DNA of 64,000 nucleotides from Blastocatellia bacterium (GTDB lineage: Bacteria > Acidobacteriota > Blastocatellia > UBA7656 > JADIYM01). Each line of letters opens with the position of its first letter. Position 1 is the first letter of the stretch. Where the stretch lies: the NCBI GenBank assembly GCA_021463145.1, contig JAJTWZ010000018.1, positions 1 through 64,000 on the forward strand, read 5' to 3'. Positions 28,834 to 54,154 of the stretch are shown here, piece by piece. The translations under genes were made by a program, and so were the position numbers. The notes under the pieces are model-generated. The model did not search any database. It had not been told where the DNA came from and worked only from the letters and a program-made list of their open reading frames with translations.

Positions 28834-29372
28834 GCGAAGCGGTCCAGGACGAGAGCCAGGGGTCACGGCGGTGAGCGAAGCGATCCGCCGTCACCCCCGG
28901 TACGCGCCGCAGGCAGGATCTCGGTCTCGGAGCGGTAGCACTGAAGCCGTCGCGATTCGATATCCACCGTGCTCGCTTCGGGACCGGCCGTTCGACCGCT
29001 CCGCGGTCGGCGCGATGGGGCTGGTGGTTCCGCGGGTCGCGCGCGGAGGCTCGTTTCACTCGCCTGCGCGCGACCCACGGCTGCTATGAAACACAGCCGT
29101 GCGCTGACGCCTGCACTCCGCCCGTTTCATTCCAGGGGGTACGCCGCAGGCGTGTGGGGAACTATTGCATCGACCGCTCCGCGGGCGGCATGACCGCGAA
29201 GCGGTCACAGACGATAGCCGGGGGTCACGGCGGTGAGCGAAGCGATCCGCCGTCACCCCCGGTACGCGCCCCAAGAAGGATTTCGACCGCGGAGCGGTCG
29301 CACTGATTCTTGACGGACGCGACTTCCGCTGTGCTCGTCGCGATGGTGACGGTGCGACCGCTCCGCGGTCGC
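28834..29372. repeat. Repeat island A: composite of 17-bp palindromes and larger modules
   Basis: This fills the 790-base gene-free stretch 28756-29545. A module at 28834-29010 recurs at 29196-29372 with a constant 362-base offset, almost identical over its first ~110 bases. Each contains the stem GGGGTCACGGCGG / CCGCCGTCACCCC around TGAGCGAAGCGAT. Palindromes YGACCGC-NNN-GCGGTCR occur at 28993, 29191, 29284 and 29355. Between the modules, 29024-29170 is a reverse-complement match to part of island B near 45 kb. No open frame or transposase is present. Confidence 0.88.
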
Positions 29373-37111: not shown

Positions 37112-38611
37112 CTATCCGCGCCGCTGATCCAGCCAGGCCTCGAACTCCGGCAATTCGAGCTCCATCGCTACAGCCTTACGGACGAAGAGGACGGCGTGGC
37201 TTCGCAGCATGTCCTCGGACCAGCGCTGATAAACCTCGGCGCGCTCGCTCGCCCGAAACTCCGCGATCTTCTCGAGCACGCGAGCTTCGAAGGCAAGGTC
37301 GCCCATACGGCCGACCTCGCGGTTCACTTCGGCGTCGACGAAGCCCGTGTAATCGAGTTCCTCACGACTTCGCCGCTCGATCTCGTCTGTCACGTCACTG
37401 ACCGACGCCGTCTCCTGTGGAGGCGCAACGTGGCTTACCGGCAACTCGTCGCTGATCAGGGAGATCAGGAAGCCCGCCGGGTTGTCGACACGCCGCTTGC
37501 CGTGCTTCAACAACCAGTCGAAGTACGAAATCGTGTCCGTGACCTGTCCCAGCCGGTTAGGCGAGTGCGCCCGGACGATTGAAGCCGCGCGACGTCTGGT
37601 GATTCCTCGGTCGACCAGCGCGGCGAGCACGTCGCCCTCAGCTCCAGCCAACCGTGCTTCGTCGTCGCCGTCGACCTCGATCGTCAGCGCAGCTTCTTCG
37701 AACGGCAGTCCGTCGAGGGCTTCCTCGATGACTTCCTGCTCGAAGTCATCGTGCGGGACACGCTGGAACGAGATCACACGGTCGCGAATCTCCCAGTTCT
37801 TCAGGTAACCGTTGACCTTCAGATCTTCGAGGGCCGGCTTGAGCTGCTGCACGAGCTGAGAGACGTACTTGAAGTTTCGGCTGACGCCCAGGTGCTCGTG
37901 CGAGAGCTTGAAGATGTCGATGGCAAAAAAGTGATCCCGCCCGAATTTCTTGTCGAGGTATCGGAACAGCCGCCGGGCGGTTGCTGAATTGAGCTTGAAG
38001 TAGAGCTCGGTATCGAGGAACTTGATGTAGCCGCTTTTGAAGCTCTCGAAAAGCCGTTCCGTCCACATGAAGAAGCTGGACGGCGGGTCGGACCTGAGCT
38101 TCTCGCCCTTCCGCGGCTTCTCGTCGTAGAGCTGGTATTCCTGAATCAGCGAAAAGCTGACCGTCACGTAACTGCGCTTCGCGTTGTCCCAGAAGGCGTT
38201 CGACGCGTGAATGTTGACGTTCGCAAGGCGCAGCAGCGCCTGCTCGATCCGGCTGTAAGTCTTGCCGCACGGCGACCACCCAAGCCGCTTCGCCAGTTCG
38301 TATCGCGAAAAGTTCACCTTGCGGTCAGCGAAACCGAGCTTCCGCGTCAGTTCCATCAGCGCCACGTAGACGTCCTCGTCGCCGGCCGTCGGCATGCCGC
38401 AATCCGAACCGCCCTGGACGGTCCAGGTCCGTTTAACGATTTTCCCGCCGTCGCCCTGGATCGTATCCTGGAATTTCAACGCCTTGACGTCCTTTGGAAC
38501 TCGAACCGAAAGGGCCGCAATCGGGAAGACGGCGAGGTTCATCTCGTCCTTCCCGCTGCGTCCCCTCAGTTTTCTTGTTCCCGGCGTCGCCGGACGGCTC
38601 TTTTTCGTCAT
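37112..38611 (-). CDS. Plasmid-type replication initiator protein A (RPA family)
   Basis: A 499-residue protein. The N-terminus DEMNLAVFPIAALSVRVP, then WTVQGGSDCGMPTAGDEDVY and NFSRYELAKRLGW-type winged-helix sequence (VNFSRYELAKRLGWSPCGKT) are hallmarks of the replication initiator protein A family found on plasmids and in some chromosomes. YSRIEQALLRLANVNIHASN, VTVSFSLIQEYQLYDE and LNSATARRLFRYLDKKFGRD continue the domain through about residue 290. The C-terminal ~200 residues are acidic and helical. Directly upstream lie two direct repeats and an iteron array (38736-39179), the classic origin arrangement. No parAB, mobilisation or toxin genes are adjacent. Confidence 0.87.
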   Translation of the reverse strand: MTKKSRPATPGTRKLRGRSGKDEMNLAVFPIAALSVRVPKDVKALKFQDTIQGDGGKIVKRTWTVQGGSDCGMPTAGDEDVYVALMELTRKLGFADRKVNFSRYELAKRLGWSPCGKTYSRIEQALLRLANVNIHASNAFWDNAKRSYVTVSFSLIQEYQLYDEKPRKGEKLRSDPPSSFFMWTERLFESFKSGYIKFLDTELYFKLNSATARRLFRYLDKKFGRDHFFAIDIFKLSHEHLGVSRNFKYVSQLVQQLKPALEDLKVNGYLKNWEIRDRVISFQRVPHDDFEQEVIEEALDGLPFEEAALTIEVDGDDEARLAGAEGDVLAALVDRGITRRRAASIVRAHSPNRLGQVTDTISYFDWLLKHGKRRVDNPAGFLISLISDELPVSHVAPPQETASVSDVTDEIERRSREELDYTGFVDAEVNREVGRMGDLAFEARVLEKIAEFRASERAEVYQRWSEDMLRSHAVLFVRKAVAMELELPEFEAWLDQRRG

Positions 38612-43779: not shown

Positions 43780-44790
43780 ATGAGACCAGCGGAAATCTCC
43801 GAGGACGGCCGCGCCGAGGCCGCTGCGCGAGCGCCGGAACTAGTCGCCACACTCGAAGCGTCGATCGGCCGGATCGTCATCGGTCAGTTCGAAGTCGTCC
43901 GGCAGGTCCTGGTGGCCCTTCTCGTCGGCGGACACGTGCTGGTACGCGGCGTGCCCGGCCTCGCGAAGACGCTGCTGATCAAGACGCTCGCTTCATCGCT
44001 CGAGTTGGCGTTCAATCGCGTGCAGTTCACGCCGGACCTGATGCCGGGCGACATCCTGGGAACCGAAGTCCTCGAAGAGGATCTGACGACAGGGCGCCGT
44101 GTGACGAGGTTTATCCCGGGACCCGTGTTCTGTCAGGTGCTGCTTGCCGACGAAATCAACCGCACACCGCCGAAGACCCAGGCCGCGCTGCTCGAAGCGA
44201 TGCAGGAACGCCAGGTGACCGTCGCTGGCCAGCGGTATGCGCTCGACGCACCGTTCTTCGTGATGGCGACGCAGAATCCTATTGAGCAGGAAGGCACGTA
44301 CAGGTTGCCCGAGGCCGAGCTCGATCGCTTTCTTTTCAACGTGAAGGTCGACTATCCGAACCTCGACGAAGAGGAACGAATCCTCTCGGCTACTACCGCC
44401 GCGCGTGACGATGAAGTTCGGCCGGTGGCCGATGCGGCTCGGATTCTCGCGACGCAGCGAGCAGTGCGTGACGTGGTTGCCGCAACCAACGTCGTTCGAT
44501 ACGCCGCGCGCATTGCCCGCGCGACGCGCCCCGGCACCGCCGACGCAGTGGAAGCCGCCCGCGACTGGGTGGCGTGGGGAGCCGGACCGCGAGCCGGTCA
44601 GGCGCTGCTGCTCGGCGCAAAGGCGAACGCGTTGATAGAAGGGCGGTACGCGGTGACGTTCGACGACATTCGGAGGATTGCGCATCCGGTGTTGCGCCAT
44701 CGCGTCGTACCGAACTTCCACGCCGAGGCCGAAGGTCTCGATTCGGATACGATCGTGGATCGGGTGCTGGCCGACGTTCCGCTCGAGTAA
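43780..44790 (+). CDS. moxR: MoxR-family AAA+ ATPase
   Basis: A 336-residue ATPase. Walker A-like loop is VLVRGVPGLAKTLLIKTLA, the Walker B region LLADEINRTPPKTQAALLEA continues into MQERQVTVAGQRY, and sensor 1 is FFVMATQNPIEQEGTYRLPE. MoxR chaperones work with DUF58 and vWA proteins, usually encoded immediately downstream. Here the next 1 kb is a repeat island followed by an unrelated minus-strand operon, and the DUF58 gene appears only at 53267. It starts 18 bases after pilT. Confidence 0.93.
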   Translation: MRPAEISEDGRAEAAARAPELVATLEASIGRIVIGQFEVVRQVLVALLVGGHVLVRGVPGLAKTLLIKTLASSLELAFNRVQFTPDLMPGDILGTEVLEEDLTTGRRVTRFIPGPVFCQVLLADEINRTPPKTQAALLEAMQERQVTVAGQRYALDAPFFVMATQNPIEQEGTYRLPEAELDRFLFNVKVDYPNLDEEERILSATTAARDDEVRPVADAARILATQRAVRDVVAATNVVRYAARIARATRPGTADAVEAARDWVAWGAGPRAGQALLLGAKANALIEGRYAVTFDDIRRIAHPVLRHRVVPNFHAEAEGLDSDTIVDRVLADVPLE

Positions 44791-44976
44791 GAAACGGGAA
44801 AGCCGTCCTCGGCGGCGCTTGCGGGAAGCGCCCGAGTGGCGACGCAGACGGCCCGGCGCTCGGGTTCGGCGGTTGGACGACGCCGCGCGTGGTTGCGATT
44901 CCGAATGCGCGCGGAGGGCGGAGGCAGCGGATTCGTCCCAGTGCTTCGCACGGACAAAGCTTGTTGAAACTCAGAA

Positions 44977-45600
44977 TGCGCAGGATTTCGCCGTTGGGTG
45001 CGACCGCTCCGCGGTCGAGACGACGTGGGTGGGTGGACCGGGGGTGACGGCGGATCGCTTCGCTCACCGCCGTGACCCCCGGCTATCGTCTGTGACCGCT
45101 TCGCGGTCATACCGATCCGGAGCCCGGTGAAATAGCCGTGGGTCGCGCGCCGGCGAGTCCGCGACCGCGGAGCGGTCGATGTAGTAACTCCCCGCACGCT
45201 TGCGGCGTACCCCTTGGAATGAAACGGGCGGAGTCAGGCGTCAGCGCACGGCCGTGTTTCACAGCAGCCGTGGGTCGCGCGCAGGCGAGTCCGCGACCGC
45301 GGAGCGGTCGATATAATAGCCGTGGGTCGCGCGCCGGCGAGTGCAACGAGCCGCGGCGCGACCCGCGGAATCGCCCGCCCTGACGCGCCGACCGCGGAGC
45401 GGTCGCACCGTCGCTCCGGTCAAGCACACCGGGATCGTCTCGATTTGATTGTAATGCGCACGATTTCGCCGTTGGGTGCGACCGCTCCGCGGTCGAGATC
45501 CTGATTTGGGTGCGTACCGGGGGTGACGGCGGATCGCTTCGCTCACCGCCGTCACCCCCGGCTATCGTCTGTGACCGCTTCGCGGTCATACCGATCCAGG
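44977..45600. repeat. Repeat island B: inverted composite copy of island A
   Basis: The gene-free stretch 44791-45801 holds this island. A ~146-bp module at 44977-45120 recurs at 45454-45599, containing GGGGTGACGGCGG / CCGCCGTCACCCC stems. Perfect 17-bp palindromes YGACCGC-NNN-GCGGTCR occur at 45001, 45093, 45162, 45294, 45389, 45479 and 45572. The second module is the reverse complement of the island A module at 29196-29306, nearly identical over ~110 bases. 45170-45375 is the reverse complement of 29024-29180 with about 64 extra bases. Positions 44791-44976 show nothing recognisable. Confidence 0.88.
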
Positions 45601-45704
45601 GCGGTCAGGCCGATCCAGAGCGGTCCAGTCGATCCGGAGCGGTCACGCCGATCCAGGGCGGCCCAGCCGATCCAGGGCGGCCCAGCCGATCCCGAGCGTT
45701 CTTG
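45591..45704. repeat. Six-copy 19-bp tandem repeat
   Basis: Units start at 45591, 45610, 45629, 45648, 45667 and 45686, consensus CCGATCCAGGGCGGTCCAG. A single diverged unit stands at 45112. It abuts the end of island B, and its GCGGTC core resembles half of the palindrome found in the island, so it may be an amplified fragment of that element. Confidence 0.85.
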
Positions 45705-45801
45705 CCGAAGGCGCGTTGCGAACTGTGACGATGGACCGCCTGGCGATTTATCGTCCCACATTCGGCCGCTGCAGCGCTGGCCTGGCGGCCGGTCGCACAG
45801 G

Positions 45802-47352
45802 CTAGGCCGGCTCCTCGTCCTGATTCTTCCGCCTGGCCGCGGTCACGAGGCGACCGGCCAGGCCGCGCAGCATCCGCACGTCTTCGGCAGGAAGCCCGAC
45901 GATGAAAAGGGTTGCACCGTAGGCGACAACGACGGCCGCTCCGATCCCTGCAAGCGCCACGTACTTGTTGCCACTCGCCACCCCATCCACTAGGCTCCCG
46001 GCAACCACCGCGAGCGCGACAGCCATCGCCGGTTTGAGATGTGCCCGGCCGACGGCAACTACACGGAGCAGTCGATGCGCCGCGACTGCGTGCAGCAGAT
46101 TCGCGAGGATCATCGATGCGAGTTGTCCGATCGCAACGCCGACGAGGCCGTGGCCCCGCACGAGCGAGAGAGAAACAACCACGCCCGCGCCACCCGACAC
46201 GAGTCCGATCCAGAATGGCACACGCGCGTGGCCCGCCATCGTCAGGGCTGACGCCGCAGGACCGGCGAGAAAGCTCGCGAGCGTGCCGAGCGCAACGATA
46301 GCCACGACGGGTGAAGCCACGGCGAACTGATCGCCTACGACCGGCATGACCCGGTGGGGAAACGCAACGAGCATTGCAACCGCCGGCAGCGCAAGGGTCA
46401 GCACCGTTCGCGCGACCCGCTGGAAGGCTTCGGCGATGTCACCACGATCTTCGACCGCAAGCGCGGCCGCTATCGACGGCCGGAACGCCGCGTCGAACGC
46501 CGATGCGACCATCATCGTCAGGAGCGCCGTTCGAACGGCCACGGCGTAGTGCGTAGTCGCTTCGGACGTCACGAACGTGAATACGATGAACGTAGACGAC
46601 CACGTCAGCAGTCGCTGCAACAGCGAGAGACCGCACGACGGAACTGCCACGCGCAGCATTGCCGGCAGGTGCCGTTCCCGGCCGTGTCCTGTGATTGCGC
46701 TTGCGAGCTCGCGCTTGTACGCGATCCGTGCGAGAACTGCGCTAACCGCAATGCCCCCGGCGTACGCAATTCCGAGAGGCGCCGACTGGGAAACGAAGTC
46801 GGCCGCGAAGTACAGCCCACCTGCGACTGCGATCTTCACCGTCGGCTCGACCGCCATGCGGATGATGACCGGAAAGCGCTGACGGCCGACGCCTTCCAGG
46901 GCCCAAAGATGGTTGTCGGCAAACAGCGACAGGGGAATCGCGATCGCCGCGACCTGGAGGAACGGCGCGAGGTCCGGCCGGGCGAGGACCTCCGCGAGCC
47001 ACGGAGCGGCGACAATCACCGCCGCCATCACGGCGATTCCAAGCGGCAGCGTGACGGCGAAACTGGTCCTCACGATTCGGGGAATTTCGGGAGTCACGCC
47101 GCGTGCCTTCGCGCTCGCTGTCTCGCGAATGGACGCTTTCTCGAAGCCGCCCTCCGTCAACGCGTAACAGATCTCGAAGATTCCGACCCCGAACAGATAA
47201 AGACCGAATGCCGTCGAACCGTATGTCTTCGCAACGAACAGAGCGAACAGGTACCCCAGGACCTTGTCGAACGCGAGTCCCGAGAAACGAATCGACGCCT
47301 GGCGGGCGACGGAGCCGAACGTCGCCGGTGGCGGTTGTACTGGCATTTCCAT
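45802..47352 (-). CDS. Polysaccharide/lipid flippase-like membrane protein (MVF/Wzx type)
   Basis: A 516-residue protein from ATG 47352 with about 12-14 membrane helices. The N-terminal region FGSVARQASIRFSGLAFDKV, then YLFALFVAKTYGSTAFGLYL and ICYALTEGGFEKASIRETA, follows the pattern of Wzx/oligosaccharide flippases. It starts 79 bases after the threonine-synthase-like gene on the same strand, so it may export the product of that operon. A longer frame to 47496 overlaps the upstream gene and has no supporting features. The exported compound cannot be named. Confidence 0.85.
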   Translation of the reverse strand: MEMPVQPPPATFGSVARQASIRFSGLAFDKVLGYLFALFVAKTYGSTAFGLYLFGVGIFEICYALTEGGFEKASIRETASAKARGVTPEIPRIVRTSFAVTLPLGIAVMAAVIVAAPWLAEVLARPDLAPFLQVAAIAIPLSLFADNHLWALEGVGRQRFPVIIRMAVEPTVKIAVAGGLYFAADFVSQSAPLGIAYAGGIAVSAVLARIAYKRELASAITGHGRERHLPAMLRVAVPSCGLSLLQRLLTWSSTFIVFTFVTSEATTHYAVAVRTALLTMMVASAFDAAFRPSIAAALAVEDRGDIAEAFQRVARTVLTLALPAVAMLVAFPHRVMPVVGDQFAVASPVVAIVALGTLASFLAGPAASALTMAGHARVPFWIGLVSGGAGVVVSLSLVRGHGLVGVAIGQLASMILANLLHAVAAHRLLRVVAVGRAHLKPAMAVALAVVAGSLVDGVASGNKYVALAGIGAAVVVAYGATLFIVGLPAEDVRMLRGLAGRLVTAARRKNQDEEPA

Positions 47353-47431
47353 CCGATGAAGAGTGGCGCAGGCTATCGGCTTCGCAAGTGCTTCCGCAAC
47401 GCGTCCCGGATGCCGCGTCGTAATGACGGCC

Positions 47432-48652
47432 TCACCATTCGCCCTCCGCTTCCGGAACCCACGTGCCATTCGAGCGCCGCAGCCATCGGACTTCATGCGA
47501 GCCGGCCGTCTCGTCGCGGTCCCGGCCCGTCAGATTGACGAGCACCGTGTGGCCCGCGGGAAGCTCGCCTCGCCGGGCAAGGCGCGCCACCCCTGCAATC
47601 GCGGCTGCGCTGCTGAAACAGAGCGTGAGTCCTTCGAGCTCTTCCGCCATGCGCCGGGCTTCGCGTATCTCAGCCTCCGAGACCGACGCGAAGGCGCCTT
47701 CGCTCTCGAGCACGATTCGCCGGACTATCGGATACACGCGCGACGGATTCCCGCGCAGGATGGCGGACGCGATGCCAGTCGGCCGCTCGACGATGTGGCG
47801 CTCTTCGATCGTCTCGCTCCCCTCGGCGAACGCCGACGCCATCGGACTGCACGTCTCCTGCTGTACACAGAGGAGCCGGGGCGGCCGCGCGATTCGCGAC
47901 AGTTCCACAAGCTCGACGGCTCCTTTCCACGTGCCGTATACGCCCATGGCGCTCGAAACGGCCTGGACGTACCAGTCGATGGGCCGCGGCACCTGCTCGA
48001 CCGCTTCGAGGAACGCGAGCTTGAGTCCTTCACGCCGCGCAGGATTGAAAAATCCTCGTTCGGAGAGCAGTCCATTGCGTCGAGCGAACTCGGCCGCGAA
48101 CTCGAAGGCCTCGACGAACGTCGCGTCCCGAAGCACGAAGTGCGTAACCTGGTCTGTCGATGCGAAGTTCACGCGATGGCTGAACTCGTCGCCCGAGAAC
48201 AGGTACATCCGCATTTCAGGGCAGCGACCGATCAGGTTTGCGAGGGCCGTCGAACTGTTGCCGGTCGAAGCGGTACAGAACTCGGTAATCCCGCATTCCC
48301 GGAGGAACGACAGCACGACGGCAGCCATCCGGTCCTTCGTGGTGCCGGTCGGCAGCACGGACTCGTCCTTGATGTAGAGCCACGGAAGCCCAAGGGCGTC
48401 GCCGAGCCGCCCGGCGTGGTGGCACGGCGTCGGCCCCGCGCCGTACGTCGTCAGGTTCTCCGTCGACTCGAGCGGCAGCAGATCGAAGTACCGGACGAAC
48501 GAATCCTCCGACGACCGAAACACGACGCGGCCGAGGTCGTACCGAATGTCGATCATCGCACCGCAGCGATTGCAGAACGTCGTGAACGAGTGCGGAAACG
48601 CCGCGCCGCAGCCCGTACAGACATGGTGAACCGTCTTGACTGCGGAGCTCAT
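47432..48652 (-). CDS. Threonine synthase-like PLP enzyme with N-terminal zinc ribbon
   Basis: A 406-residue protein. The zinc ribbon has Cys12, Cys15, Cys27 and Cys30. The PLP domain has LYIKDESVLPTGTTKDRMAA, where Lys of TTKDR corresponds to the Schiff-base Lys of the PTGSFKDR motif in threonine synthase. CTASTGNSSTALANLIGRC is the phosphate-cup segment. Threonine synthases carry out beta,gamma-replacement on O-phosphohomoserine, but relatives act on other amino acids. Its ATG overlaps the stop of the LarA-like gene by 4 bases. The isolated setting in an A-T-TE operon suggests a role in building an unusual amino or keto acid rather than threonine supply. Confidence 0.82.
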   Translation of the reverse strand: MSSAVKTVHHVCTGCGAAFPHSFTTFCNRCGAMIDIRYDLGRVVFRSSEDSFVRYFDLLPLESTENLTTYGAGPTPCHHAGRLGDALGLPWLYIKDESVLPTGTTKDRMAAVVLSFLRECGITEFCTASTGNSSTALANLIGRCPEMRMYLFSGDEFSHRVNFASTDQVTHFVLRDATFVEAFEFAAEFARRNGLLSERGFFNPARREGLKLAFLEAVEQVPRPIDWYVQAVSSAMGVYGTWKGAVELVELSRIARPPRLLCVQQETCSPMASAFAEGSETIEERHIVERPTGIASAILRGNPSRVYPIVRRIVLESEGAFASVSEAEIREARRMAEELEGLTLCFSSAAAIAGVARLARRGELPAGHTVLVNLTGRDRDETAGSHEVRWLRRSNGTWVPEAEGEW

Positions 48653-49929
48653 GCCTCGGTCGCCGTGACGTGCGTGACGTTTGCGTGGGGGACGACGTGG
48701 CAGTGGAATCCCGGCCCGAGCCGCTCTTCGAGCCATGCGATCCCGGCTTCGAGCGACGGCACGGGATGCAGGCCCATCTGGCGCACCGAGTCGTCGTCCA
48801 GGCCGCTGCAGAGCGCAATGCCGTTCTGCCGCGACACCTCGCGCAGCATAAGCGTGTTGTGGCCCTTGAGGTTGTACCGTTCGCGGACGGCCGCTTCGAG
48901 CTCGGTGTCCGATTCGACGGCCGCCCACTTCAAGAAGTCCGGATCGATGCCGAACGGACACTCGGCAAGCCACAGGATCGCGCCGCCGGGACGCACCGCC
49001 TCGCGGACGTTCATCACGGCCTTGAGCGCCTGCATGAAGTTGCAGTCATATGGATTTCCCCCCGCGCTCGTGATGACGGCGTCCGCCCTTTCCGGCGTAC
49101 GGACCCGGTGCAGTCGTTCCGCTCGGCGACAGCCTTCGAGATGCGCGGCCTCCGTGTCGCCGGCAACGGCATCGACGAGGCGGTGCCCGGTGTCAAGCAG
49201 TGTGTTCAGGCAGAAGGTCGGACCGGCCATCCGCAGTCCTTCGAGCATGTCGAGATGGATCGGGTTTCCGTCCAGCACGCCCGGACGGGCCCTTGGATGA
49301 AGGCCGCGGCAGGCATCGAGAGTCAGCCGGTGATTCGCCTTGATCGTCCGAAAGCCGGCGACACCAGGAAGCAGCGCCTTACGGCCGCCGCTGAATCCGG
49401 CGAAGTAGTGCGGCACGATGCGGCCCGTGAGAATCCGGACGCCGGCGTCCAGCACGCGCCGATTGAAGGCGACCGGCGTCCCGAAGCTGGTCGTCCCGAG
49501 ATGCTCGAGGTTCGACTCTTCGAAGCAGTCGTGAAACACCGTGCGGACGCGCGCCGCCGTGTCTTCGCCGAGCAGCCCTGCGACGTCGCGTTCGAGGTGG
49601 TGCTCGTGCGTGCCAGTCGCAAGGAACACCTCGATCCCGCTCGCCGGCACGCCAGCACGCTCGAGCACGTCGACGAGCGCCGGGACGTAGACGCGCGTCG
49701 CGGCCACGCGCGTCTTGCCCGGAATAAGTATCGCCGCGGATCGGGCTCCCATCGCGAGCTCGTCGAGCGGCGCCGAACCGATTGGCGCGTCGAGCGCGCG
49801 CCACACGATATCGTCCGGCGAGCGTTCAGGATCGTCCGGCGGCGCGGAAACCACGGAGCAAAGCGACGCTGTCGCCGGAAGCGCGGCCGACTGCTCGCCG
49901 TATCCGTAACGAAGGCGGATCTCGGTCAT
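48649..49929 (-). CDS. LarA-family nickel-pincer racemase/epimerase
   Basis: A 426-residue protein. LATGTHEHH gives His108, RIVPHYFAGFSGGRKALLPG gives His174 and Lys184, and RTIKANHRL gives His200. These match residue for residue the catalytic His108/His174, cofactor-linked Lys184 and nickel ligand His200 known for lactate racemase LarA. The family interconverts alpha-hydroxy acids using a nickel pincer nucleotide. Making the cofactor needs LarB, LarC and LarE, which are not in this window. Start and stop both overlap neighbours by 4 bases, locking it into one operon with the synthetase and PLP genes. It probably acts on another 2-hydroxy acid. Confidence 0.85.
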   Translation of the reverse strand: MTEIRLRYGYGEQSAALPATASLCSVVSAPPDDPERSPDDIVWRALDAPIGSAPLDELAMGARSAAILIPGKTRVAATRVYVPALVDVLERAGVPASGIEVFLATGTHEHHLERDVAGLLGEDTAARVRTVFHDCFEESNLEHLGTTSFGTPVAFNRRVLDAGVRILTGRIVPHYFAGFSGGRKALLPGVAGFRTIKANHRLTLDACRGLHPRARPGVLDGNPIHLDMLEGLRMAGPTFCLNTLLDTGHRLVDAVAGDTEAAHLEGCRRAERLHRVRTPERADAVITSAGGNPYDCNFMQALKAVMNVREAVRPGGAILWLAECPFGIDPDFLKWAAVESDTELEAAVRERYNLKGHNTLMLREVSRQNGIALCSGLDDDSVRQMGLHPVPSLEAGIAWLEERLGPGFHCHVVPHANVTHVTATEA

Positions 49930-52451
49930 GCGTTCTCCGGCCCCCGGGCGCCCATGGCCCGCTCGATCGCCGTTGCCAGCGCCAATGCATTGCCCGCTTC
50001 GAACACGGTCCGGTGATCTCCCGGGACGTCGTGCACGACGTGTTCCGCAACGGGAGACCGGTCCCAGCCGAGCGAGCGGTCCAGCCGAGCGCCGAGGAAC
50101 GGGATCGCCGGCCGGAAGACGTCGACGCGGCCGGAATATGCGTCAGTCGGCGAGTACCGGCCGACGAGCTCGAGCATCGCCCGGCGCAGCGGACCGTCGA
50201 TGTCGGGGCCGCCCGTGCGCCGGCGTTCGCGCCGGGCAACGCGTTGCAGCGTTCGCCTGGCGAAAGCGAAGCGCTCGCCCGCTGGCAGCGACGCGAGGAC
50301 GGAAGCGTGATTGAGCTTCTTTCGTGCAGGCGAGACGCGCCGTCCCTCGATCGGTGCGTACGTGTCGATGAGCCCGAGAAATGTGACGGGCTCTCCGCAC
50401 GCCACGAGCTGGCGCGCCATCTCGAATGCTACAAGGCCGCCGGCTGAGTACCCGCAGAGGCGGTACGGACCGTCCGGCACGGCTCCGCGCAGCACGTCGA
50501 CGTATGCCGCGGCGAGGTCTTCGAGGGACCTGGCGCCGAGCTTGCCCTCGAATCGCCCGTCGGCTTCGAAGGCGAACGCCGGCTGGTCGGCCCCGAGCGC
50601 GGCCACGAGTTCGCGCAGGAAGACGACGCCACCTCGCAGGCCGTGCACGAAGAAGAGCGGCCGCCGCGTACCGCGCGCCTCGAGGGTCGTCAGATGCCAC
50701 GCGCACGCGTAGCCGGGTTCCGTCCGCACGAGCTCGGCCATGCGGGCGACGGTCGGAGCGCGGACGATGCTCGAGAGCGGCAAGCGCCGGCCCGTCAAGC
50801 GCTCGATGCGCACGAACAATTGCGCGGCGCCGAGCGAGTCGCCGCCGAGCGCAAAGAAATCGTCGTCGACGCCTACGGGCGAGACTCCGGTGATCTCCTC
50901 CCACATCCGGCAGAGCGTGGCCTCCAGGTCGTCGCGCGCGTCGAGTAACGGCGTGGCCAGGGCGGGGCGTTCTGGCGGCGGGTCCGGAAGCGCGTTGCGG
51001 TCGACCTTGCCTGTGGACGTAAAGGGCAGCGCGTCGAGCAGAACGAGCGTCGACGGGATCATTGCATCCGGCAGGCAAACGGCGAGCTGCGCGCGGACGA
51101 TCTCGATCGTCGGCGATGCCTGGTCGACGGGCACGCCGTACGCCACGAGCTTCGTCGAGCCGGATGGCGTCGCGCGGGCCGTGACGATCGCTTCGCGTAA
51201 CTCACCGGTCGCCACGAGCGCGTTCTCGACCTCTGCGACTTCGATGCTCTGGCCGCGGATCTTCAGCCGGGAATCCTTGCGGCCGAGATGCTCGAGGCAT
51301 CCGTCCGCGCGTAGACGGCCCGCGTCACCCGTCCGGTACGACCGCCACTCGTCCGTGGACGGATCCGCCGAGAGCGCGAGCGCCGTCAGCTCCGGACGGT
51401 TCCAGTAGCCGGTGCTCATATGCCGGCTGCGGACGAGGATCTCCCCTTCCTCGCCGAACGGCACGTCTTCGCCTTCCGCGTCGACGATCCGGACTTCGAC
51501 GCTGGACGGCGCGAATCCGACCGGCATCGCTCCGGACGCGATCGGCGTCGACGCAACGATCTGCATCTGGGCGATGACGCTCAACTCGGTCGCGGCGTAG
51601 TGGTTGACGAGCACGGCATCGGGCGGAAAATGCGCGCGGAAGAGCTTGACGTCCGTGGCCGTGACGGGCTCGCCGCCCAGGTCGACGGCGCGGACCGACT
51701 CGAGCGTCTCCGCCGATCCGAGGCTCGACGCAAGCTGACGGAACACAGTCGGCAACGTGTGCAGGATTGTGATGCGCTCTGCGGCGATCCACGACGCCAG
51801 GCCCGAGACACCGGCCTGGCGCGTCGGATGGCAGCAGAGCGCCGCTCCGTGCAGCAGTCCGGTCAGGATGTCGAGGTTCGCGGCGGCGAAACTATAGGAG
51901 TAGAGCATCGACAGCCGGTCGCGTTCGGTCACACCGAGTGGTGCGGCGTAGTTACGAACGAAGCTGACGAGCGACGCGTGGGATTGCATGACGCCCTTCG
52001 GCTCGCCGGTCGACCCCGACGTGTACACGATCACCGCAAGCGCATCAGGGCTGATCGGGACGCCTGGCGCGGAATTCGCCGTCCGCACCGCCGAGAGATC
52101 GATGCCATTTCCGCCGTCCGTCAGCACGAACGCCGCGCCGCAATCGTCGAGGACGAATCGCGATCGGGCTTCCGGAAACGTCGGATCGAGCGGAACGTAG
52201 ACGCCGCCCGCTTTGAAGATCCCGAGAATCGCGGGCACGAGCCGATCCAGGCCGTCCAGCCGCAAGGCCACGCGATCGCCAACACCGAGGCCCCGGTCGA
52301 GGAGCTCTCCTGCGATCCCGTTCGCTTCGGCGTCGAGCTCACCGTACGTCAGCACTCGGCCGGGCGACCGGACCGCGACGCGGGCCGGATACCTGGCGGC
52401 CAGCGCTTCGATGGCCGACGAAATCGATTGCGTTTCGGACAGGGCGGGCAT
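49926..52451 (-). CDS. Single-module synthetase: adenylation, carrier, thioesterase (A-T-TE), no condensation domain
   Basis: An 841-residue protein. The A domain (1-490) has IVYTSGSTGEPKGVMQSH (~141-158), NHYAATE (283-289), YRTGD (372-376), GRKDSRLKIRGQSIEVAEVE and the catalytic Lys in TSTGKVDRNAL (~482). The carrier has FFALGGDSLGAAQL with phosphopantetheine Ser539. The thioesterase has FFVHGLRGG, GYSAGG (Ser669), LIDTYAP (Asp696) and a C-terminal GDHRTVFE His. At the position of the Asp that binds the substrate amino group, the sequence is SFAAAN (Ala189). Known A-T-TE enzymes lacking that Asp condense alpha-keto acids to quinones or furanones. ATG 52451 is chosen; the frame upstream overlaps the divergent methyltransferase gene. 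Confidence 0.9.
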   Translation of the reverse strand: MPALSETQSISSAIEALAARYPARVAVRSPGRVLTYGELDAEANGIAGELLDRGLGVGDRVALRLDGLDRLVPAILGIFKAGGVYVPLDPTFPEARSRFVLDDCGAAFVLTDGGNGIDLSAVRTANSAPGVPISPDALAVIVYTSGSTGEPKGVMQSHASLVSFVRNYAAPLGVTERDRLSMLYSYSFAAANLDILTGLLHGAALCCHPTRQAGVSGLASWIAAERITILHTLPTVFRQLASSLGSAETLESVRAVDLGGEPVTATDVKLFRAHFPPDAVLVNHYAATELSVIAQMQIVASTPIASGAMPVGFAPSSVEVRIVDAEGEDVPFGEEGEILVRSRHMSTGYWNRPELTALALSADPSTDEWRSYRTGDAGRLRADGCLEHLGRKDSRLKIRGQSIEVAEVENALVATGELREAIVTARATPSGSTKLVAYGVPVDQASPTIEIVRAQLAVCLPDAMIPSTLVLLDALPFTSTGKVDRNALPDPPPERPALATPLLDARDDLEATLCRMWEEITGVSPVGVDDDFFALGGDSLGAAQLFVRIERLTGRRLPLSSIVRAPTVARMAELVRTEPGYACAWHLTTLEARGTRRPLFFVHGLRGGVVFLRELVAALGADQPAFAFEADGRFEGKLGARSLEDLAAAYVDVLRGAVPDGPYRLCGYSAGGLVAFEMARQLVACGEPVTFLGLIDTYAPIEGRRVSPARKKLNHASVLASLPAGERFAFARRTLQRVARRERRRTGGPDIDGPLRRAMLELVGRYSPTDAYSGRVDVFRPAIPFLGARLDRSLGWDRSPVAEHVVHDVPGDHRTVFEAGNALALATAIERAMGARGPENA

Positions 52452-52495: not shown

Positions 52496-53209
52496 ATGCC
52501 GTTGGCCTCGTGGAAGAGTGCTGGTAGAACGGCAACGGTGCGAAGGGTAACTGACAGCGTGAGACGGTGGCTGATACCGGTGCTCCCCGAGGCGCTCCGC
52601 GTCTGGTTCTTCCGGCGATTATGGGAGAACCGCTGGCAGGGCGACTCCATTCCCGGCCCCTGGTACGATCGGGACATCTCGAGCGAGATCGTCGACGCGG
52701 TCGAAAGCGGCTGGTTTCCCCCCGGGAAGCATGCGATCGATCTTGGATGCGGCAGGGGCGATGTGGCCGCGTGGCTCGCGACACACGGGTTTCTTAGCGT
52801 CGGGATCGACATCGCGCCCTCCGCCATTCGCCGCGCACGGGAGCGGCACGGCGAAGCGCCCGGGTTGCTCGCGTACTTCGTGGCGGACGTCTGCCGCGGG
52901 TCGTGGCCCGAGGGGACATACGACGTTCTCGTGGACCGCGGCTGTTTCCACCAACTCGCGGCTCGCGATCGTCTCGTGTATGCCTCAACGCTTCGGGAAC
53001 GTTCGGTCGACGGGGCGCGTCTCCTGCTTTTCGTGAAGGCATATCGCGACGATCGGCGAATCGGCGAAGCGAAGGAACGGGATAGAAGGACGCGCGAGGT
53101 CGAGCGTGCGTTCGAGGGCGCCTTCGCGATCGATCGCGTCGACGACACGTTTCTCGGGCCGGAACGTACGCTTCCGGGAATTGTGTTCTGGATGACGCGG
53201 CGTGCGTGA
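52496..53209 (+). CDS. SAM-dependent methyltransferase
   Basis: A 237-residue class I methyltransferase. Motif I is HAIDLGCGRGDVAAWLATHG, motif II SVGIDIAPSAIRRARER, then YDVLVDRGCFHQLAARDR and a C-terminal PGIVFWMTRR. It has features of the thiopurine/tellurite-type small-molecule methyltransferases (WENRWQGDSIPGPWYDRDIS at the front). It diverges from the synthetase gene with only 44 bases between starts, so it may tailor the same product. GTG 52541 is an alternative start. It reads toward DUF58, with 57 bases between. Confidence 0.83.
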   Translation: MPLASWKSAGRTATVRRVTDSVRRWLIPVLPEALRVWFFRRLWENRWQGDSIPGPWYDRDISSEIVDAVESGWFPPGKHAIDLGCGRGDVAAWLATHGFLSVGIDIAPSAIRRARERHGEAPGLLAYFVADVCRGSWPEGTYDVLVDRGCFHQLAARDRLVYASTLRERSVDGARLLLFVKAYRDDRRIGEAKERDRRTREVERAFEGAFAIDRVDDTFLGPERTLPGIVFWMTRRA

Positions 53210-53266
53210 CATTTGCAAGCGAACCGCTCGAAACCCCTCTCGGCGCGCTGCGTAGATCACTTCACC

Positions 53267-54154
53267 GTGCTCGATCCTCAACTCCTGTCACGACTTGGTT
53301 CGCTTGACGTCATCGCGCGCACGATCGTCGATGGAACGATGGTGGGCATGCACGCCAGCCGCAGTCGGGGCATCGGGACGGAGTTCTCCCAGTATCGCCA
53401 GTACATCGCCGGCGACGACCTGCGCTCTCTCGACTGGCGCGTGTACGGACGGACGGATCGCTACTACGTGCGGTTGTTCGCGGCCGAAACCAACCTCGAA
53501 GCAACCATTCTCGTCGACGCAAGCGCGTCGATGAGGTTCGGAACGACTGGCAGCTCGAAATTCGATGTCGCGCGAATGATGGCGGCGGCGCTCGCGTATC
53601 TGCTCGTTGGTCAGAGCGACCGGGTCGGGCTCGTTCCGGTTGCAGGCTCGGGCCGAACTCAGCGCATCTCGGCGGGCAGCGGCGATCGACACCTTCGCGC
53701 TTTGTTGCTTGGACTCGAGCGGCTCGAGGCGGACGGGAAGGGGTCCATCGCTGCCGAGCTGGACGGACTGTTGGGCCGGCTGCAGCGCCGGGGGCCGATC
53801 TTTGCGTTGTCGGACTGCTACGAGCGGGCAAGCGGGATTGGTGATGCGATCGCCAGGCTTTCGCGGGCCGGGTTCGACGTCACGCTGCTGCACGTGCTCG
53901 ATCCGGTCGAGCGGACGCTCGAAATCGATGGGGACACGGAGTTCGTCGGACTGGAGGGCGACGGCCATCTGACGGCCGACCCTCGCCGGCTGAAGCGTTC
54001 CTACCGCGAGCGCATCGACGCGCACGTGCGCGATCTAGCCTCGGCGTGCGCGCGGTGCGGTTCGATTTTCGTTCCGGTCTCGACTGCCGATCCGCTGGAC
54101 AGACCCCTTGCGACGGCGCTGCGCGCGCGTCGCCTGCGCGGAGCGCGCTCGTGA
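53267..54154 (+). CDS. DUF58 protein
   Basis: A 295-residue protein (GTG 53267; a TTG at 53213 would add 18 residues). The core reads GIGTEFSQYRQYIAGDDLRS, then LDWRVYGRTDRYYVRLFAAE and ATILVDASASM, a DUF58 domain with a MIDAS-like DxSxS. It belongs with MoxR ATPases in envelope or protein-complex maturation. The stop overlaps the ATG of the next gene. It has lost its usual adjacency to moxR, which ends at 44790. Confidence 0.9.
   Translation: MLDPQLLSRLGSLDVIARTIVDGTMVGMHASRSRGIGTEFSQYRQYIAGDDLRSLDWRVYGRTDRYYVRLFAAETNLEATILVDASASMRFGTTGSSKFDVARMMAAALAYLLVGQSDRVGLVPVAGSGRTQRISAGSGDRHLRALLLGLERLEADGKGSIAAELDGLLGRLQRRGPIFALSDCYERASGIGDAIARLSRAGFDVTLLHVLDPVERTLEIDGDTEFVGLEGDGHLTADPRRLKRSYRERIDAHVRDLASACARCGSIFVPVSTADPLDRPLATALRARRLRGARS

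Follow-up and report, generated by a model that had tools for sequence, protein, structure and literature searches.

The 64,000-nucleotide stretch of DNA analysed here (the window) contains a five-gene block. At moderate confidence, the block appears likely to encode a horizontally moving pathway devoted to a small specialised metabolite; it would be a small-acid pathway with an interchangeable C2-modifying step. The block is an operon of four genes and a divergent methyltransferase gene; the operon is real, and its genes are intact. The five genes are as follows.

45802-47352, minus strand: MATE/Wzx-type flippase, 516 aa (Pfam Polysacc_synt above cut-off)
47432-48652, minus strand: fold-type II PLP enzyme with zinc ribbon, 406 aa (Pfam PALP above cut-off)
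48649-49929, minus strand: LarA-type nickel-pincer nucleotide (NPN) enzyme, 426 aa (Pfam Lar_N and LarA_C above cut-off)
49926-52451, minus strand: A-T-TE synthetase, 841 aa (Pfam AMP-binding, PP-binding and Thioesterase above cut-off)
52496-53209, plus strand: class I SAM methyltransferase (TPMT-like), divergent from the synthetase

Open reading frames and Pfam matches bear out the four genes, their order, the 4-base overlaps and the 79-base gap before the flippase given in the preliminary description of this DNA. Its composition of the unit holds for these genes, but the methyltransferase is also part of the block. The overlaps are at 49926-49929 (A-T-TE/LarA) and 48649-48652 (LarA/PLP enzyme). 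The gap between the PLP gene and the flippase is 79 bases if the flippase starts at 47352; an ATG further upstream, at 47496, is likewise open. A scan for promoters and terminators gave no more matches than chance.

In related genomes, moxR is within 1.4 kb of a DUF58 gene in 15/15 loci. In the window, the moxR/DUF58 pair (43780-44790 and 53213-54154) is kept apart by 8.4 kb, made up of the five block genes and a repeat-rich intergenic stretch. Therefore, the five-gene block is an insertion. The palindrome CGACCGCNNNGCGGTCG has 8 copies in the window (0.01 on average in shuffles), and intergenic stretches rich in it are found at 44790-45800 and 28993-29371. The first of these also carries longer direct repeats and adjoins the inserted block. 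A plasmid-type replication initiator (37112-38611, minus strand; RPA and TrfA families, 50 and 29 bits) is encoded about 7 kb from the block on the 72 kb contig and may indicate an integrated plasmid. Plasmid carriage of the block itself was rejected because none of the plasmid records encodes a near relative of its PLP enzyme.

Related clusters occur in 15 other genomes from several phyla. Scanning 84,980 species genomes for the PLP enzyme yielded 14 loci; L111 came from an additional search. In each group sampled, few genomes carry the PLP family: 2/396, 2/243, 1/246, 1/247, and 1/199, counts that include the genome on which each search was centred. The main loci are listed below; where an A-T-TE was read, its adenylation (A) domain code is given (ten pocket positions read against GrsA).

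Window, LarA type; AALHDGHVIK
L053 (G062), same phylum as the window but another class: methyltransferase, LarA, PLP enzyme, A-T-TE, in that order; GQAIRGANF
L095, Nitrospirota MAG, LarA type: LarA, PLP enzyme, A-T-TE; SAMHDGHVA
L096, delta-proteobacterial MAG, LarA type: LarA, PLP enzyme, A-T-TE; SAMHDGHVV
L098, Planctomycetota MAG: LarA, PLP enzyme, separate AMP ligases
L103: LarA, PLP enzyme, separate AMP ligases
L102, Sphingomonas hankyongi: compact oxidase, PLP enzyme, A-T-TE, no LarA; SAMHDARFI
L111 (G503), oxidase type: compact oxidase, PLP enzyme, A-T-TE, no LarA; SAMHDGHVI
L106, Acidimicrobiia MAG: oxidase, PLP enzyme, A-T-TE, no LarA; GAVHAGTPV
L104, gammaproteobacterial MAG: PLP enzyme, A-T-TE, no LarA, upstream end of locus missing; SALHDGHVI
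L107 and L108, Streptomyces: neither LarA nor oxidase

The preliminary description had made its reading depend on linkage of LarA, PLP enzyme, and A-T-TE in homologous operons, and this linkage is present in G062, the Nitrospirota MAG, and the delta-proteobacterial MAG. Identity of the window proteins to those of G062 is 50% for LarA, 57% for the PLP enzyme, 36% for the A-T-TE, and 45% for the methyltransferase. The window gene order differs from that in L053, L095, and L096; therefore, the linkage is not mere inherited synteny. Chance neighbourhood was rejected because the cluster recurs across phyla. Methyltransferase homologues are present in L053, L095, and L106. Rarity of the family and insertion of the block fit horizontal spread, which is not read from the PLP-family tree. 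In that tree, the very long branch of cysteate synthase makes its placement unusable, and branching within the family is for the most part not settled; no history of LarA and oxidase is therefore drawn from it.

LarA and an FAD oxidase are exchangeable at one gene position. LarA immediately precedes the PLP gene in six loci (window, L053, L095, L096, L098, and L103), and an FAD oxidase (DAO/ThiO type) directly precedes it in seven (L097, L099, L100, L101, L102, L106, and L111). No locus has both. In 9/9 genomes searched whose clusters lack LarA (G503, with L111, was outside this set), the LarA N-terminal domain is missing from the entire genome. The cluster oxidase resembles ThiO-type glycine oxidase and D-amino acid dehydrogenase (PF01266; up to 174 bits with the ThiO model), but it is below the ThiO cut-off of 250.8 and, unlike ThiO-type enzymes, always lies directly before the PLP gene. 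LarA and oxidase reactions are chemically different. The two enzymes probably handle the same building block, and gene position suggests that they serve the same step.

LarA enzymes that have been described use 2-hydroxy acids as substrates (PMC7583248; PMC11770544), and the catalytic residues of LarA are Asp72, His108, His174, and Lys298 (PMC7583248). The window LarA retains His108, His174, Lys184, His200, Gln300, and Lys303, and NPN-binding Arg75, Lys184, and His200 correspond to its Arg74, Lys184, and His200. The four key residues noted in the preliminary description (His108, His174, Lys184, and His200) are thus present, but of the catalytic set only His108, His174, and Lys303 are kept; the Asp72 site is Gly71-Lys72. 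All six cluster LarAs (window and five relatives) have Gly then Lys here (GK[TAD]R) and retain the NPN ligands and both catalytic histidines, while Mar2 and 15/18 other LarA homologues from related genomes have Asp-x-x-R. At the four specificity positions (taken from PMC11770544), cluster LarAs have Tyr, Phe, His, and Asn. Malate racemases differ at the last two, with His/Gln and Lys; the malate-racemase motif GHK is GHN in the window LarA. The best NCBIfam matches of the window LarA are malate racemase (LarAH6/Mar2) and LarAH10, at 333 and 330 bits, both below the cut-offs (500 and 540). The closest solved structure by sequence is 6d6z (Mar2), and the catalytic histidines and NPN ligands of both groups are retained. 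Judged on these residues, the cluster LarAs are a distinct LarA subgroup with an altered catalytic residue. The window LarA is the sole LarA of its genome, which also encodes LarC and LarE (both above cut-off). Its predicted structure has low confidence around residues 175-224. Instead of racemising 2-hydroxy acids, the variant (Asp72 to Gly-Lys) might use NPN to carry out hydride chemistry on an amino acid, or on one of its derivatives, at C2. It would then be the counterpart, working without oxygen, of the FAD amine oxidase that replaces it in other clusters; we consider this reading quite improbable.

The A-T-TE synthetase of the window has the adenylation core motifs (A10 Lys482), a carrier motif (LGGDSL, carrier Ser539), and a thioesterase (GYSAGG, triad Ser669/Asp696/His813), and it lacks a condensation domain. 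It therefore has the three domains, with active-site residues, of an A-T-TE-type enzyme. Loss of the Asp that recognises the substrate amino group, described earlier, was found to extend beyond the window: Ala189 in the A4 motif SFAAAN is position 235 (GrsA numbering), and Asp235 is absent from 8/8 cluster A-T-TEs read, with Ala in the window and Ser or Gly in the other seven. Asp235-bearing NRPS modules from the phylum of the window have the pocket code DAMHVGGV. Single-module A-T-TE synthetases for aryl alpha-keto acids are of the atromentin type. The window enzyme is like these in domain order, absence of a condensation domain, and absence of Asp235. Among curated models and solved chains, those closest to it are bacterial NRPS modules.

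The code SAMHDGHV is common to LarA-type L095 and L096 and oxidase-type L111; therefore, the A-T-TE substrate is, to judge from the codes, probably independent of whether LarA or oxidase is present. This bears on the possibility that the A-domain substrate is a 2-hydroxy acid racemised by LarA, which would lead to a depsipeptide-like product or an ester. Absence of Asp235 and the activity of the LarA family on 2-hydroxy acids are in its favour, but catalytic Asp72 is missing, and L111 has an amine-oxidase-like gene instead of LarA with the same A-domain code, so the LarA product need not be the A-domain substrate. We consider this possibility doubtful at best. The related earlier proposal, in which 2-hydroxy or 2-keto acids of controlled stereochemistry make up the product, would be compatible with the data; LarA is not obligatory, however, being replaced in L111 by the FAD amine-oxidase-like enzyme.

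The PLP enzyme shares its fold, PLP lysine, and STGNS loop with threonine synthase and cysteate synthase, and it has the signatures TGTTKDRMA, FFNPARREGLK, QAVSSAMGV, and QQETCSPM. In threonine synthase 1uim, the site for the phosphohomoserine phosphate comprises what we take to be Lys116, Asn154, Ser155, and Asn188. All four are replaced in the PLP enzyme, and Arg160 is kept. The label "threonine-synthase-like" thus suits the fold, but the residues where the substrate phosphate would sit contradict a threonine-synthase function. A housekeeping threonine synthase was rejected because this site is lost and the genome of the window has a second threonine-synthase-like gene (C141:94228). The family is far below the curated cut-offs of threonine and cysteate synthase, and sequence and modelling favour treating it as a family in its own right, apart from threonine synthase.

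Resemblance to cysteate synthase raises the possibility of a sulfonate route, in which the PLP enzyme would convert O-phosphoserine and sulfite to L-cysteate. Cysteate, sulfopyruvate, or sulfolactate would be the substrate of LarA or the oxidase, and a C3 sulfonate would be loaded by the A-T-TE. The predicted PLP-enzyme structure is confident (pLDDT 91). In structural comparison it matches CapA2, a cysteate synthase (9k3c), best, with E 1.9e-27 and a TMq of 0.83; short threonine synthases reach a TMq of about 0.69. CapA2 leads by E-value and TMq but not by TMt, and its greater length gives it an advantage in TMq. The PLP enzyme has Arg161 and Ser188 in common with 9k3c, unlike threonine synthase, but at conserved columns that tell the two apart the family sides with threonine synthase in 17 cases and with 9k3c in one. 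For the L096 and L102 enzymes, the highest-scoring NCBIfam model is that of cysteate synthase; its cut-off (TIGR03844, 324.9 bits) is not reached by the window (121 bits) or L096 (138 bits), nor does the PLP enzyme reach any other curated family cut-off. Positive residues recur in the A-domain pocket (His278, His/Arg322) and in LarA (Lys72), and sulfonolipid synthesis starts from phosphoserine with cysteate synthase as its first enzyme (PMC11211663). Annotation of neighbouring genes revealed no recognisable sulfite or sulfonate gene. On balance, a sulfonate route is possible but unlikely.

In the pathway that we favour, the PLP enzyme would form an aminoacrylate-type intermediate, like its structural relatives, and thereby make or remodel a beta-substituted amino acid, as fold and residues suggest. 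C2 of this acid or a derivative would be set to the needed form by the variant LarA with its nickel-pincer nucleotide and, in other bacteria, by the FAD amine-oxidase-like enzyme. The C2-acting enzyme and PLP enzyme would thereby feed the A-T-TE, which would adenylate an acid without the normally bound alpha-amino group hold it as a thioester, and release it by hydrolysis or transfer. The methyltransferase would modify and the flippase export the product, both last. Products may differ between clusters because the L053 A-domain code differs despite its full gene set. Counted against this pathway are the chemical difference between the LarA and oxidase reactions, the stand-alone AMP ligases that take the place of the A-T-TE in L098, L100, L101, and L103, the Streptomyces loci with neither C2 enzyme, and the flippase, which is not conserved beside the LarA/PLP/A-T-TE trio. 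The flippase could alternatively be a Wzx-type lipid-sugar exporter, with the block decorating a polysaccharide or the cell envelope and yielding no free metabolite. A polysaccharide-type flippase is present in the window and L105, and the L096 region has a glycosyltransferase upstream and a Wzt-like ABC ATPase. However, the inserted block has no glycosyltransferase, and neither flippase nor glycosyltransferase was identified in the compact L102 and L111 clusters, making envelope decoration rather improbable.

The block sets an NPN enzyme within a conserved biosynthetic cluster. We found no described case of this in the literature searched, which also yielded nothing comparable for LarA, threonine synthase, or cysteate synthase as members of biosynthetic clusters. 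It also defines the altered LarA subgroup and a PLP family apart from threonine synthase. Exchange of LarA and FAD oxidase narrows candidate substrates to acids with a C2 on which both enzymes could act. This is directly testable in Sphingomonas hankyongi, a named strain that carries the oxidase, PLP enzyme, and A-T-TE.

In Streptomyces (L107 and L108), a diverged PLP-family enzyme is encoded with a carbamoyltransferase, an enolase-superfamily enzyme, a Gfo/Idh oxidoreductase, an MFS exporter, and acetolactate-synthase-like and transketolase-like TPP enzymes; no product was assigned. Neither LarA, PLP enzyme, nor oxidase adjoins the A-T-TE loci L112 (L067), L113 (L069), and L114 (L077). These three and L086 encode further A-T-TE-type enzymes without Asp235, with pocket codes SAMRCGQTI (L112), GAGYRGGLA (L113), AASHRSSLI (L114), and GATHRGGVI (L086).
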